Part shown: positions 4,086 to 40,298 of the stretch, one piece after another
How positions within the stretch are numbered: the first letter of the stretch is position 1
Layout: each line of letters opens with the position of its first letter
Origin: Bacteroidota bacterium
Lineage (GTDB): Bacteria > Bacteroidota > Bacteroidia > Flavobacteriales_F > PHOS-HE28
Direction of reading: 5' to 3'
NCBI GenBank assembly: GCA_018266475.1
Contig: JAFEAI010000251.1
Location: 1 to 49,542, forward strand
DNA length: 49,542 nucleotides
Translations under genes and position numbers: made by a program
The notes under the pieces: generated by a model
What the model saw: the letters and a program-made list of their open reading frames with translations, nothing else
Told to the model about the DNA's origin: nothing
The model's database searches: none

Positions 4086-6470
4086 ATGAAACGAGTTTCA
4101 CTCCTTTGCATTTCGCTGTTCGGCCAGGCTGTTCTGCTTCTGGCGCAAGGCACATGGCTTCCCTTGGGCCCTGCTGACGGCCAGTGGCCCCTGCCGGGGT
4201 ATTCCGCCTTCCAGGACATGGCGCTTGATGCGCAAGGCAACCCCGTGATCGCCTTCCAGGACGGAGCCAACGGGCAAAAGGCCACGGTGATGCGCTGGGA
4301 CGGAAGCTCCTGGTCCACCGTGGGCGCACCGGGCATTTCCGCAGGGCCCGCCGCCTACCTGCGCATTGCGCTTGATGGTGCCGGCGATCCGGTGGTGGCG
4401 TACCAGGACGGCGCGTACGGGCAAAAGGCCACGGTGCTGCGCTGGAACGGCACTGCATGGAACGTGGTGGGGTCACCGGGATTTTCGGCCGCTGTGGCCG
4501 AAGCCCTGAGCTTGGCCCTTGATGGCAACGGAAACCCGTTGGTAGCGTACCGCGACAATGGCAGCGGCGGCAAGCTCACCGTGATGCGCTGGGGCGGCTC
4601 CGCCTGGGCGGCGGTGGGTGCGTCCGGGATCTCCACCGGCGCTGTGGACAATGTGAGCATGGCCTTGGCGGCCAATGGCGATCTGGTGGTGGCCTACCGG
4701 GACGGCCAGAACGGCGGCAAGGCCACGGTGATGCGCTGGAACGGCAGTGCCTGGGGCACCGTGGGCGCACCGGGCTTTTCCGCCGGTGGCGCGGTGGCCG
4801 TCAGCCTTGCGTTGGATGCATCGGGCAATCCGCTCGTGGCCTACCAGGATTGGGGCAATGGATCGAAGACCACCGTGATGCGCTGGAGCGGAACGGCGTG
4901 GAACGCCCTCGGCGGTGCAGGCATTTCTTCCGGTGGCGCCGATTACCAACGCATAGTTGCGGATGTCGCCGGCAATCCCGTGGTGGTGTTCCAGGATTAT
5001 TCCGTTTCCCACGGCACCACGGTGATGCGCTGGAACGGCAGCACCTGGGGCACGGTGGGCAATGCGGGCTTGTCCGGCGGGCTTGCCCAGTACCAATGCG
5101 TTGCGCTGGATGCGGCCGGAATGCCCGTGGTGGCCTATGCGGACGGAAACAACGGCTACGGCACCACGGTGATGCGCTGGAACGGCAATGCCTGGGTCCC
5201 GGTGGGCACGCGCGGCATTTCGGCCGGCGGGGCCGCCTTCCAGGGCCTTGCGCTGGATGCCGCAGGCTACCCCGCCGTGGCGTTCCGGGATGGATCGGCG
5301 GACAACAAGGCCACGGTGATGCGCTGGAACGGAAGCGCATGGAGCCTGGTGGGCGCGCCCGGGTTTTCCGACGGCCCTGCATTTTACTTGGGCATTGCCG
5401 TGGATGGCGGCGGAAATCCCGTGGTGGCCTACACCGATGGCGGCAACGCCAACAAGGTGGCCGTGAAGCGGTGGAACGGCACTGCCTGGGCCGCCGTGGG
5501 CCCACCGGTCATTTCCGAGGGTGAATCCGGGTATGTCAGCCTCGTGCTCGATCAGGATGGTGCTCCCTTAGTGGCGTTCCGTGATGATGCCAACGGGCAG
5601 AAGACCACGGTGATGCGCTGGGACGGTTCCACGTGGGCCGCCATGGGCGGCACGGGCATTTCCACCGGAAGCGCGGACTACCAAAGCCTTGCCATGGGCT
5701 CAGACGGCCTGCCCGTGGTGGCGTTTTCCGATTGGGCCAATTTCCATAAGACCACGGTGATGCGCTGGAACGGCACTGCGTGGGGCACCATCGGCACGGC
5801 CGGCATTTCCGAAGGAGCCGCCGATTACCAAAGCCTTGCTTTAGGCACGGGCAACCAACCCGTGGTGGCGTACCGGGACAATGCGAACGGCCAAAAGACG
5901 ACGGTGCTCCGCTGGGACGGCACGGCGTGGACTGCGTTGGGCGGAGCAGGCATGTCCCCCGGAAAGGCGCATTACCAAAGCATTGCGGTGGACCCCGCCG
6001 GAAATCCGGTGGTGGCCTTTGCCGATTGGGCCAGCGGCAAGCGGACCACGGCCATGCGCTGGGACGGGTCCGCTTGGGCCACGCTTGGCACGGCCGGTTT
6101 TACGGCGCCCCTCAGCAGCGGGTCCAACCGGTGGATGCAGGTGAACGGGCAGGGCCAGCCGATAGTGGCCCCGTGCAGCGGATTCCTGTACGCGAAGCGG
6201 TACGATCAGCTGGCCACTTCCGTGGCGGAAGTGCCGCAAGGGCCATCCCTGCAGGTTCTCCCCAACCCTGTGCGCGATGCGTTCACGGTGGAGGGTGTTC
6301 CGGCTGGCGCGGTGGTCACGCTTTGCGATGCCGCAGGGCGGTCCGTTCGCACGTGGGGGTCCACACTGGCGGGGGTACCGTACGGCACCGCCGGTCTTGC
6401 GCCGGGCCTGTACCTGCTGCGCGTGCAGGGGCAGGAGCGCGCCGTGCGGCTGGTCATCGAACGGCCTTAG
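4086..6470 (+). CDS. Secreted T9SS cargo with 13 propeller-like 49-residue repeats
   Basis: A 794-residue exported protein. It opens with a signal peptide (MKRVSLLCISLFGQAVLLLAQ), has one partial and thirteen full 49-residue repeats, and ends with a T9SS type-A sorting domain (LPNPVRDAFTV, then LAPGLYLLRVQG). Each repeat carries the pattern TTVMRWNGTAW..VG..GIS and LALD..GNPVVAY.D, which suggests beta-propeller blades, though I do not recognise a named family. No catalytic residues stand out; adhesion or binding is a guess. The start at 4086 is chosen by the signal peptide; an in-frame Met at 4068 is possible. The long upstream in-frame extension overlaps the nuclease gene and is discarded. 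The gene is transcribed away from the nuclease. Confidence 0.85.
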   Translation: MKRVSLLCISLFGQAVLLLAQGTWLPLGPADGQWPLPGYSAFQDMALDAQGNPVIAFQDGANGQKATVMRWDGSSWSTVGAPGISAGPAAYLRIALDGAGDPVVAYQDGAYGQKATVLRWNGTAWNVVGSPGFSAAVAEALSLALDGNGNPLVAYRDNGSGGKLTVMRWGGSAWAAVGASGISTGAVDNVSMALAANGDLVVAYRDGQNGGKATVMRWNGSAWGTVGAPGFSAGGAVAVSLALDASGNPLVAYQDWGNGSKTTVMRWSGTAWNALGGAGISSGGADYQRIVADVAGNPVVVFQDYSVSHGTTVMRWNGSTWGTVGNAGLSGGLAQYQCVALDAAGMPVVAYADGNNGYGTTVMRWNGNAWVPVGTRGISAGGAAFQGLALDAAGYPAVAFRDGSADNKATVMRWNGSAWSLVGAPGFSDGPAFYLGIAVDGGGNPVVAYTDGGNANKVAVKRWNGTAWAAVGPPVISEGESGYVSLVLDQDGAPLVAFRDDANGQKTTVMRWDGSTWAAMGGTGISTGSADYQSLAMGSDGLPVVAFSDWANFHKTTVMRWNGTAWGTIGTAGISEGAADYQSLALGTGNQPVVAYRDNANGQKTTVLRWDGTAWTALGGAGMSPGKAHYQSIAVDPAGNPVVAFADWASGKRTTAMRWDGSAWATLGTAGFTAPLSSGSNRWMQVNGQGQPIVAPCSGFLYAKRYDQLATSVAEVPQGPSLQVLPNPVRDAFTVEGVPAGAVVTLCDAAGRSVRTWGSTLAGVPYGTAGLAPGLYLLRVQGQERAVRLVIERP
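4281..6191 (+). repeat. Thirteen 147-bp coding tandem repeats
   Basis: The segment encoding TTVMRWNG recurs every 147 bp exactly, from 4281 to the thirteenth unit at 6045, with no indel between units. Short blocks such as ACGGTGATGCGCTGGAACGG are identical or nearly so in most units, while the blade interiors have diverged; the thirteenth unit is degenerate. Confidence 0.9.
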
Positions 6471-36227: not shown

Positions 36228-37256
36228 TCAATGCACCAGCACCACCTTCACGGGTGGCCAACTGCGGTCCTGCGCGGCCAACACATAGTTGCCGGCGGGC
36301 AAGTTCTTCATGCCGATCTCCTGTTCGCGGGATGCCGGGATGGACCCGGACAGCACGGGCCTGCCCACCATGTCCAGCAGCAACCACCTGCTGCCGGGCA
36401 CAAGGGCGGCGGGCCAAGTGATGGTGAGCTGGTCGGTGGCGGGGTTGGGGGCAATGGCCGGTTGTTTCGGCGCCACGGGCCCGATGCCGAAGGCCAGCCA
36501 CGGGTCGGACGGGCCCTGGCACGGCAGTCCGTAGTCCACCACTGCCGTATAGGGGCCTGAACTCAGGGGGGTGATGCAATTCGTTGTGGCCAACGGCTGG
36601 CCTGCCAGGTACCACTGGGTGGAATTGCCGGTGGGATACACGCAGATCTGGTCGCCCATGGGAATGATCTCCGGGCGGGCCATGGGCAGGAACTGCACAT
36701 CAATGTCCACGCCGATGCCCATCACGGAATTGGGGCACGTTGCGGGAGCGGCCTGCGCGGTATACGTGCCGGAAGTGGTGATCACCAGCGTGGGTGAGGT
36801 TTCACCCGGCATTACCGCCCCGTTGCGCATCCAGGCGATGTGCTGTGTGTAGCCCGGCGACAGGGTGAGGGTGAGCGTATCCCCTTCGCAGAACTGCACC
36901 TCGGGCCCGGAGGAGATGGGCTCATCCCCGCCGTGGATCACGGACGGGGGCAGGAAGACCCAGCCGTCCACCAGCACCGCGGCGGCGGCTGCCGTGCAAC
37001 CGTCCAATGTGGCGGAAACCGTGAAGCTGGAGCCCGCATCGGCTGCTTGGTGAACGGTAAGGGTTTGGTGCGTGGCACCGGGGATCGCCGTCTCGTCCTT
37101 GTACCATTGGTAGGCATCGTAGGCCTCCGTGGTGAGCACGGCCGTATCGCCGGGGCACAAGATCACATTGTCGGGGCTTACGGTGGGAGTGAAGGGGCAT
37201 TGGGCCAGCATGGCGGTGGTGGCCATGCCAATGAAGGAGGTAATGAGGAAGCGCAT
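36228..37256 (-). CDS. Secreted Ig-like/PKD-like T9SS cargo protein
   Basis: A 342-residue exported protein: signal peptide (MRFLITSFIGMATTAMLAQ), three Ig-like modules with the pattern LCPGDTAVLTTEAYDAYQWY, FCEGDTLTLTLSPGYTQHIAWMRNG and the QICVYPTGNSTQWYLAG region, each with paired cysteines, and a T9SS sorting domain (IAPNPATDQLTITW, LLDMVGRPVLSG, LPAGNYVLAAQD). It may be an adhesin or binding protein; no enzyme domain is present. Met at 37256 is chosen over the longer frame to 37313. Confidence 0.83.
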   Translation of the reverse strand: MRFLITSFIGMATTAMLAQCPFTPTVSPDNVILCPGDTAVLTTEAYDAYQWYKDETAIPGATHQTLTVHQAADAGSSFTVSATLDGCTAAAAAVLVDGWVFLPPSVIHGGDEPISSGPEVQFCEGDTLTLTLSPGYTQHIAWMRNGAVMPGETSPTLVITTSGTYTAQAAPATCPNSVMGIGVDIDVQFLPMARPEIIPMGDQICVYPTGNSTQWYLAGQPLATTNCITPLSSGPYTAVVDYGLPCQGPSDPWLAFGIGPVAPKQPAIAPNPATDQLTITWPAALVPGSRWLLLDMVGRPVLSGSIPASREQEIGMKNLPAGNYVLAAQDRSWPPVKVVLVH

Positions 37257-37364
37257 GGTTGCTGGATCGGGTTTGTGAATGCCGGGGCCGGATCGGCCCT
37301 TGGACAGGAACAAGACAGAAGTACACCCGGTTCGCGTTGCTTGCGCGCGTGGGAAAATGGCCGG

Positions 37365-38987
37365 TCAATGCGCCACCAGGCGGAACGCATCCCCGTCAAA
37401 CATGCCGAGGTCGCTCATTTTCAAGTGCGGGATCACCAGCAGGGCCATGAAGCTCAAGGTCATGTATGGTGCGCCCAGCGTGGAGCCCAACGCCTTGGCC
37501 TGGGCATCGATCTTCGAGTAGGCCCGGGCCACTTCGTAGGCGTCGGCATCGGTCATGATGCCGGCCACGGGCAGCGGCAGGATGTTGGTGCTGGCCCCGT
37601 CCGCAAGGCTTACGCCGCCGCGTGCTTCAATGATCAAGTTGATCGCCGCGCACAGGTCATCATCATTGGTGCCCACCGCCACGATGTTGTGGCTGTCATG
37701 CGCCACGCTGCCCGCGATGGCCCCGCGTTTCAAGCCGAAGTGCTTGATCCAACCCAAGGCGGGAGGAGCGTCCTTGTAGCGGTTCACCACGGCGATCTTC
37801 AGCAGGTCGCGTGCGGGGTCGGCAATGGCCAGGCCGTTTTCAACCTTGGGGGCCATGCGCTCCTTGCCGGTGATCAGTTGCCCATCAAGCGCGGTGATCG
37901 CAAGCAATTCATCCCCGGTGGCGGGCACTGCGAAGTCCTTTGGAATTTTCGGTGTGCAGTTGAACCGGTTCGGTTGCCCTTCCGGCATGCGGGCGAGCAG
38001 GCTGCGGCCATTCTCGGCCACCAGGTTCCCGTTCAGATAGGTCTGCCGCACGCGGAATTTCACCAGGTCCTCCACCACGATCAGGTCTGCTGCATCGCCC
38101 TCGCGGAGCCTGCCGATGGGCAGCTTGTAGTGCTCCACGGGGTTTACACAGGCCGCCTGCAGCACCTTGTACACATCGATGCCCTTGGCCACGGCCCTTG
38201 CGCACAGGTCGTTGATGTGGCCCTCCACCAGGCTGTCCGGGTGTTTGTCATCACTGCAGAACATCATCTCCGTTGGATGGTCGCGCAGCAGGTCGATCAA
38301 GGCCTCGAAGTTCTTTGCCGCGCTGCCCTCGCGGATCAGGATCTTCATGCCGTGCTTCAACTTGTCCAACGCTTCCTCTGCCGTGAAGCATTCGTGGTCC
38401 GTGCTGATGCCTGCGGCGATGTAGCGCCGGGCCTCCTCGCCGCGCAGTCCGGGCGCATGGCCGTCCACGGGCTTCCCCAGCCGGTGCGCATGGGCGATCT
38501 TGGCAAGCACTTCCGCATCGCCGTGCAGCACGCCGGGGAAGTTCATCATCTCGCTCAGGTAAAGGATCTCCGGTTGCTCCAAGAGTGCGCCAACTTGTGC
38601 CGCATCAATGGAATCCCCCGCTGTTTCAAACACCGTGGCGGGCACGCAGCTTGGCGCGCCGAAGAAGAAGTGGAAGGGCGTTTTCTTCCCGTTTGCGATC
38701 ATGAACGCCACGCCTTCCACGCCCAGCACATTGCCGATCTCGTGCGGGTCGCTTACCGTGGCCACGGTGCCGTGCGTTACCGCCAGGCGCGCAAATTCAC
38801 TGGGGATGAGCATGCTGCTTTCCACATGTACGTGCGCATCCACGAAGCCGGGAAGGATGAAGCCCTGCACCGCCTCATTGATTTCCTTGATCCACGCAAT
38901 GCGCCCATGCTCAACGGCCACTTCCGCCGCATACATGCGGCGTGCAGGAATGTCCACGAGGTTCCCACGGATCACTGGTGTTGCCAT
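37365..38987 (-). CDS. ade: Adenine deaminase
   Basis: A 540-residue amidohydrolase that converts adenine to hypoxanthine in purine salvage. [14 protein letters not shown] near residue 50 holds the metal-binding His pair, then [10 protein letters not shown] near 82, PGVLHGDAE near 150, DGHAPGL near 174, STDHECFT near 193 and [15 protein letters not shown] near 240. The C-terminal small domain includes the DSHN segment ([13 protein letters not shown]) near 425. Length is normal. I use Met at 38987 (MATPVIRGN); the upstream Met at 39014 would translate the end of the MITE-like element. No partner gene is adjacent. Confidence 0.93.
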
Positions 38988-38996
38988 GCCTACAAA

Positions 38997-39133
38997 GTAA
39001 TACCAATGTGACATTCGGATCGGTCCAAGGGACGATCCGAATGTCTACAGTGGTAAATGCCGTGTGTACAAGCAAATGGTCGGAACGGTGCGAAGCCGAA
39101 ATCCGACCATATTGCTTGTCACAACGGTATAAC
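38997..39133. mobile_element. MITE-like palindromic element upstream of ade
   Basis: A 137-bp non-coding element with terminal inverted repeats of 17 bp, 14 identical (38997-39013 GTAATACCAATGTGACA; 39117-39133 the inverse of GTTATACCGTTGTGACA). Inside are two long adjacent hairpins: 39001-39055, whose core is a perfect 12-bp pair ACATTCGGATCG/CGATCCGAATGT, and 39057-39130, with 24 paired positions interrupted by three single-base bulges and a 17-nt loop. No transposase or clear target duplication. It could be a MITE, a REP-type unit or a regulatory RNA structure in the ade leader. Confidence 0.65.
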
Positions 39134-39151: not shown

Positions 39152-40219
39152 TCAGCGGTTCCCAATGCCCGGCGCAGGTGTGCTGCCCTGGCGAGCTCCA
39201 TACCGCTTCCACATCCGGTGCGCCATCCCCAGGAAGGTGACGCTCCATGCCAGCCATGCTATGCGCAGAAAGACCCACGAGACGGTTTGCAGCACAGGCA
39301 GCTGCAGCATGTCCGCGAGCTCCCATGTGCAAAGCGTGTACACCCCCAGCGGAAACACGAGCGACCATTGGCCGGCTTGGTACCGCAGCGGGATGATGGT
39401 GTAGCGCCACACTTCCAGGATGAGGATCACCGGGATCCACCAGGTGCCGGCCACCCAAAAGAAGGCGCTGCCCAGCTTCAGCATGGGAATGAAGTCCGTG
39501 TAGATGCCGTGGCGGGCCATGGCATCCGCAAGCATGGTGCCGGCCAACGTGGTGATGGCCGCTGCGCCCATGTCGATCCAGTAGCTGGGTTTGAACTCAT
39601 CGGCGCGCATGTGGAAGAAGGCGGTGCGGTGGAAGATCATGCCGATGACCACCACATAGAACAGGCCGCCGAGCAAGTACAGGAAGAGCGCTGCAAAAAG
39701 CGCATGGCGCAGATGGGGCGCAACAAGGGGCGCAAGCAAACAGGCCAGGATGGACAAGGCTTGTGCGGCCACCACGAACAGCAGCCACGTGCCGTTGATG
39801 CCATGCGCGAGGCCGGGCTTTTTGGGGCTGATGGTGACCAGGATGAAGAACGTATAGGAAAGGAGGAGCCACACGATGAACGCAACGGCCCAGAGTGCAA
39901 GAACGGTGAAGGCCCCGGAAGCCATCAGCATTTGTTCGGTGCCGAGGATGCAAAGCGCGGCAACCACGGTAAGGAACCCCGCCCCCTTGCCGGGCGCTGC
40001 AAGGTCAGCGCGGAAGTGCGGGAAGAAGAAGACCACGCGCAGCAGGAGCAGAAGCCCGAGCACCGCGAGCTCAACCTTGTTCAGCCCGAACAGGAAATGT
40101 GCAATGCCCTCATTGCCCAAGGCATGCGAGGCCAATGCCAAGGCGCCCGTGGACATCGGCAACCCGAAGTAGGCGGGGGCCAGGGTTTGGATGTCCGGTC
40201 TCAGCGCACGGAGATGCAT
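39152..40219 (-). CDS. TDT/SLAC1-TehA family membrane channel or transporter
   Basis: A roughly 355-residue protein with about ten hydrophobic segments. LAPAYFGLPMSTGALALASH near the N-terminus matches the FGxxMGTG-like opening of the tellurite-resistance/dicarboxylate transporter family (SLAC1, TehA), and a later helix contains WWIPVILILEVWRY. It may conduct anions or export a small acid; the ion is unknown. The start could also be 40267, which adds 16 basic residues. It lies between the desaturase gene and the MITE-like element, all on the minus strand. Confidence 0.75.
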   Translation of the reverse strand: MHLRALRPDIQTLAPAYFGLPMSTGALALASHALGNEGIAHFLFGLNKVELAVLGLLLLLRVVFFFPHFRADLAAPGKGAGFLTVVAALCILGTEQMLMASGAFTVLALWAVAFIVWLLLSYTFFILVTISPKKPGLAHGINGTWLLFVVAAQALSILACLLAPLVAPHLRHALFAALFLYLLGGLFYVVVIGMIFHRTAFFHMRADEFKPSYWIDMGAAAITTLAGTMLADAMARHGIYTDFIPMLKLGSAFFWVAGTWWIPVILILEVWRYTIIPLRYQAGQWSLVFPLGVYTLCTWELADMLQLPVLQTVSWVFLRIAWLAWSVTFLGMAHRMWKRYGARQGSTPAPGIGNR

Positions 40220-40298
40220 CAGGCGGATGGGGCGTTTGCGATGTTTCCCGAAGGGTGGAACAACCACGGACCGGGTTTTGATCGGGACCCACGCCGGG

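Follow-up and report, generated by a model that had tools for sequence, protein, structure and literature searches.

Here we report a small mobile element of 129 bp in a genome of the Bacteroidota lineage PHOS-HE28 (assembly GCA_018266475.1, contig JAFEAI010000251.1, positions 1 to 49,542; this whole stretch is called the window) and the pattern by which it selects its insertion sites. In the window it lies just upstream of ade, the gene of adenine deaminase. We read it as a non-autonomous hairpin element which is mobilised in trans, takes a single orientation on insertion at A(A/G)G|TNA and duplicates TNA, and a probability of about 0.85 is given to this reading; it names no enzyme class, and its probability therefore overlaps with those of the rival explanations.

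An initial annotation, made from the letters alone, had proposed a miniature inverted-repeat element as its first choice and a REP-type unit or a leader RNA of ade as the others, and had suggested a search for further copies of the ends. The search of the own genome gave 45 matches at about 36 loci, and 2 more loci were obtained from end patterns, which makes about 38 loci. Copies were also found in four of the 44 other genomes of the genus and in none of the 16 genomes outside the genus. Therefore the element is a member of a mobile family and not a leader RNA of ade, a proposal that a single copy would have favoured. Three metagenome assemblies (two Flavobacteriales and one Bacteroidetes) carry the element as well and may be genomes already counted, and searches of the phage, plasmid and viral collections yielded no copy.

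The triplets flanking the copies pair alike, TAA with TAA, TGA with TGA, TTA with TTA and TCA with TCA. They are identical in 20 of the 24 TNA pairs against 7 expected by permutation (P<5e-5), and three of the four mismatching pairs belong to composite copies (L018, L020 and L022) whose outer left triplet matches the right one. Related genomes provide the empty sites. Before ade in G004 and G006 a single TTA is followed by C(C/T)TTGCGGACATG below the same upstream gene; at the stop codon of an acyl-CoA dehydrogenase gene in G048 and G020, GCGTTCAAG or its equivalent, TGA and GCG follow each other without a gap; and at the stop codon of a Bax-inhibitor gene in G006, G004 and G020 there is a single triplet in uninterrupted sequence. 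From the matching triplets and the empty sites it follows that insertion adds 129 bp and duplicates 3 bp (TNA). The genus offers filled and empty sites for direct comparison.

In the three composites a TGA within the hairpin 2 loop is where the second unit begins, and insertion of element into element, followed by loss of the duplicated half, would explain their form. At L119 four shortened units stand in tandem after a Lys-stop. The acyl-CoA dehydrogenase stop that is empty in G048 and G020 is filled both at L013 (G000) and at L051 (G004), which may be either an inherited insertion or two independent hits.

The left flank before TNA prefers A, then A or G, then G, and the right flank has no mirror image of it. 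As the A(A/G)G preference is confined to the left flank, the element is oriented by its target, A(A/G)G|TNA, and not by the gene. Where the target is a gene end it reads Lys-stop, and the element runs in the sense direction of the gene. For ade, and probably for L020 and L112 as well, the target is the complement of TTAC(T/C)TT(T/C/G); in the ade case this sequence stands shortly before the start codon.

Exactly on the in-frame stop codon of a long upstream open reading frame lie 18 of 33 left ends, a count that rests on gene calls from a simple script and on surviving insertions which have already passed through selection. The gene at L051 is the L013 gene in another species, so that the distinct stop-codon genes number 17. 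Most of these are backed by Pfam (among others IF-3, Crp, LptF/LptG, DUF488, Bax inhibitor, RNA pseudouridine synthase and secretion tails), and the upstream genes at L012 and L037 gave no Pfam match. The background of the motif was taken from 400 kb of G004, where 12 of 84 noncoding AAGTNA sites (14%) are gene stops; the share of 18/33 is above it (P 7e-8). In a second comparison the share was 13 of 16, the left ends that have exact AAGTNA being counted by hand. The location at stop codons as a pure effect of the motif was rejected, as the motif accounts for only part of the excess.

At the ade locus the unit has TAA on either side. It is bounded by TACCAATGTGACA at one end and the near-inverse TGTCACAACGGTA at the other. 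The outer ends GTAATACCAATGTGACA and GTTATACCGTTGTGACA agree in 14 of 17 positions, a match that is partly the flanking duplication, and the terminal repeat proper is TACCNNTGTGACA, alike in 11 of 13 positions. The two stacked hairpins with terminal inverted repeats which had been described at 38997-39133 are confirmed, with the bounds now narrowed to those given below. The start codon of ade (38987-38985, minus strand) is conserved in relatives and lies 10 bp from the left TAA, the distance noted initially. The features of the locus are as follows.

39001 to 39129, plus strand: mobile element, with terminal repeat TACCNNTGTGACA, related to about 38 loci of its own genome and to copies in four other genomes of the genus.
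39001 to 39055, plus strand: hairpin 1 (predicted fold), with foot TACCA/TGGTA; 11 of 24 pairs changed on both sides among 24 copies.
About 39058 to 39129, plus strand: hairpin 2 (predicted fold), with foot TGCCG/CGGTA; 8 of 26 outer-helix pairs changed on both sides.
38998 to 39000, plus strand: left target-site duplication TAA, from the single TTA (minus-strand reading) of the empty sites in G004 and G006 and from the matching of triplets across copies.
39130 to 39132, plus strand: right target-site duplication TAA, on the same basis.
38995 to 39000, plus strand: target motif AAG|TAA in its orientation; its minus-strand reading, TTACTT, belongs to the presumed -7 box of ade, TTACTTTG; TTAC(T/C)TTG is conserved before the ade start in relatives.
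37365 to 38987, minus strand: ade, adenine deaminase, downstream of the insertion (Pfam PF13382 and PF01979; start set by comparison with relatives).
39152 to 40267, minus strand: gene of a SLAC1-type membrane protein, upstream of ade (Pfam PF03595); in G004 and G006, where the site is empty, this gene stands before ade too.

The element thus sits between two genes of the minus strand. The TTACTT upstream of ade is presumed, from its likeness to the consensus TAnnTTTG, to be the -7 box of Bacteroidota.

The folded form was analyzed in the window copy and across copies. As DNA the element, which consists mostly of the two hairpins, is predicted to fold at -47.5 kcal/mol (z -12.7), and its minus-strand transcript, the folding of which had been advised at the outset, at -72.5 kcal/mol (z -10.9); in both cases none of 200 shuffles was equally stable. 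In an alignment of 24 copies 86% of the pair cells are paired, and 20 of 54 hairpin pairs have changes on both sides, which is more than in any of 500 shuffles or any slid control; as the shuffles leave the relatedness of the copies in place, the slid controls are to be preferred for comparison. The interior of hairpin 1 is wholly replaced with the pairing kept in L028, L018 and L119. The replaceable interior and the paired changes suggest a role for the folded form, the simplest being that the mobilising enzyme would recognise it. Compensatory changes had been named initially as a sign of a regulatory RNA; such changes do exist, but they occur across mobile copies next to unrelated genes. After hairpin 2 of the window copy there is no T run, and for this reason an intrinsic terminator is not proposed for it. 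At L123 (870-1000, G000:C102) a copy has conserved ends and a foreign interior, in which a G+C-rich hairpin precedes a T-rich stretch as it would in an intrinsic terminator.

In the mechanism that we propose, the two hairpin-forming ends of the non-autonomous element would be recognised by an enzyme acting in trans, and A(A/G)G|TNA would be cut with a stagger of 3 nt, so that TNA comes to stand on both sides of a copy inserted in one orientation. Insertion at AAG TAA or AAG TGA keeps the stop codon and appends the double hairpin to the end of the mRNA with the protein unchanged, because these sites read Lys-stop and TNA is duplicated. At ade the target was the presumed -7 box on the opposite strand; the box is kept and everything upstream of it moved 132 bp away, which may affect ade. 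By landing on stop codons and restoring them, an element can multiply cheaply in a gene-dense genome, and a strong double hairpin is by this means attached to the ends of many unrelated mRNAs, where it may also have effects. Together, the oriented target and the 3-nt duplication give a precise means by which the enzyme could be identified.

Several points weigh against this reading. The degenerate copies L004/L011, L026, L037 and L050 have no matching triplets. Ordinary DDE transposons with near-symmetric ends do not usually keep a fixed orientation to the target, and some of the location bias can be put down to purifying selection. The initial annotation had also called for a transposase with the same ends, and none was found in searches of the five host genomes that were confined to the Y1, DDE_Tnp_1 and IS110 families and took in neither other transposases nor tyrosine recombinases. 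None of the inspected Y1 and DDE_Tnp_1 loci is flanked by element ends, and the pattern searches, made in mostly fragmented assemblies, gave no paired ends at insertion-sequence distance among the matches listed. The IS110 transposase (PF02371) is absent from all five host genomes and present in control genomes, and a bridge-RNA derivation from IS110 was rejected on this ground.

Two mechanisms compete: a DDE-type cut with a 3-bp stagger, or the action of a single-strand enzyme that reads structure. The IS1031 group of IS5 prefers TNA targets, and an ordinary miniature inverted-repeat transposable element (MITE) derived from a DDE insertion sequence of such a kind, with 3-bp TNA duplications, would have the terminal inverted repeats, the TNA duplication and the lack of coding capacity that are seen here; the hairpins would then be incidental and the orientation bias a product of selection. 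This origin is possible but doubtful, since selection on genes leaves the left-side AAG at promoters and intergenic sites and the compensatory changes inside the element unexplained, and the DDE_Tnp_1 loci found are without its ends. We consider it rather unlikely that the element is REP/REPIN-like and mobilised by a RAYT/IS200-type HUH (Y1) transposase, a single-strand enzyme, in which case insertion would be 3' of AAGTNA without true duplication and the right TNA would be part of the element and agree with the target via a pairing requirement. The hairpins kept by compensatory changes, the bulged stems, the tandem and composite copies, the single fixed orientation relative to the target, the Y1 genes present in all five host genomes and the location at gene ends, as for REPs (PMC3733652), agree with such a transposase, whereas the flanking triplets vary together as expected of a duplication, the inspected Y1 loci carry other repeats and the hairpin foot has no GTAG or CGTC tag. 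A mover of a kind undescribed for small palindromic elements, which would read the folded hairpins, act in one orientation with a 3-nt staggered cut at AAGTNA and tend to land on and restore stop codons, is put forward with little confidence. As a cis-regulatory leader RNA of ade, an origin for which the very stable minus-strand fold near the start codon would speak, the element is refuted: it is absent before ade in the relatives inspected, its copies adjoin many unrelated genes, and the Rfam search of the whole window gave no match at the gathering score. Such an origin is scarcely credible, and an effect on ade expression may nevertheless have been acquired.

The element belongs among the known small palindromic elements; it resembles MITE, REP/REPIN and MIRU, none of which fits all the defining features tested, and its target habit is unusual. 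The bacterial MITEs (RUP, NEMIS, ERIC and BrickBuilt of Porphyromonas gingivalis) are likewise non-coding, in the range of 70-300 bp, with terminal inverted repeats, target duplication, a hairpin fold and a position near genes (PMC3733652), but the ends differ from those listed for P. gingivalis (PMC4596501), the AAGTNA target is oriented and gives a TNA duplication, the hairpins covary, and no parent insertion sequence was found in the mostly fragmented assemblies with the searches named above. It is short and non-coding, has TACCNNTGTGACA ends and occurs in several copies with target-site duplication and empty sites, which supports the first choice of the initial annotation. REP/REPIN elements with their RAYT share the imperfect hairpins and the 3' ends of genes (PMC3733652) and also the tandem or composite arrays; from them the element differs by its 129 bp, its 3-nt duplication and its absence from the flanks of any inspected Y1 gene. 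The hairpins and the gene-end location keep an affinity to REP-type units possible, but the GTAG/CGTC tag is absent from the element ends in the 24-copy alignment. MIRU of mycobacteria, too, are short, mobile and repeated, and insert at gene boundaries where they hardly affect the gene concerned (PMC12548453); the present element differs in that it mostly ends genes, has no open reading frame and forms two hairpins. No described element of such a kind in Flavobacteriales was found in the open-access papers searched.

Some further loci were recorded. At L169 (G004) a Y1 gene lies about 0.5 kb from an element copy, and was rejected as its partner because a different repeat, GCGCCAGACGGGAGTCTGGCTTACC, adjoins the Y1 gene in place of the element ends. 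Among the Y1 genes of the genus (L042-L046 and L169) several have different palindromic repeats alongside, for example CACGGATCGCAGATCCGCGCCAACAAG at L045. A 3.9-kb inverted pair of end-like sequences at L116 (G004:C3:1-8000) was discarded as an autonomous element, since it is part of a large block of ordinary genes duplicated in inverted form at the contig start, which is probably an assembly artefact. At L036 (601-930, G000:C183) about 185 bp of a different repeat interrupt hairpin 1 of a copy. They have CGATCCGAGC on either side, as if a second mobile repeat had duplicated 10 bp on insertion. In the window an open frame of 723 codons runs antisense to ade (36840-39011, plus strand) and is presumably a by-product of codon bias at high G+C. 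Tandem-repeat stretches with a period of 147 bp, about 76% alike, lie at 5011-5281 and 5601-5871 within a long predicted gene of the plus strand.
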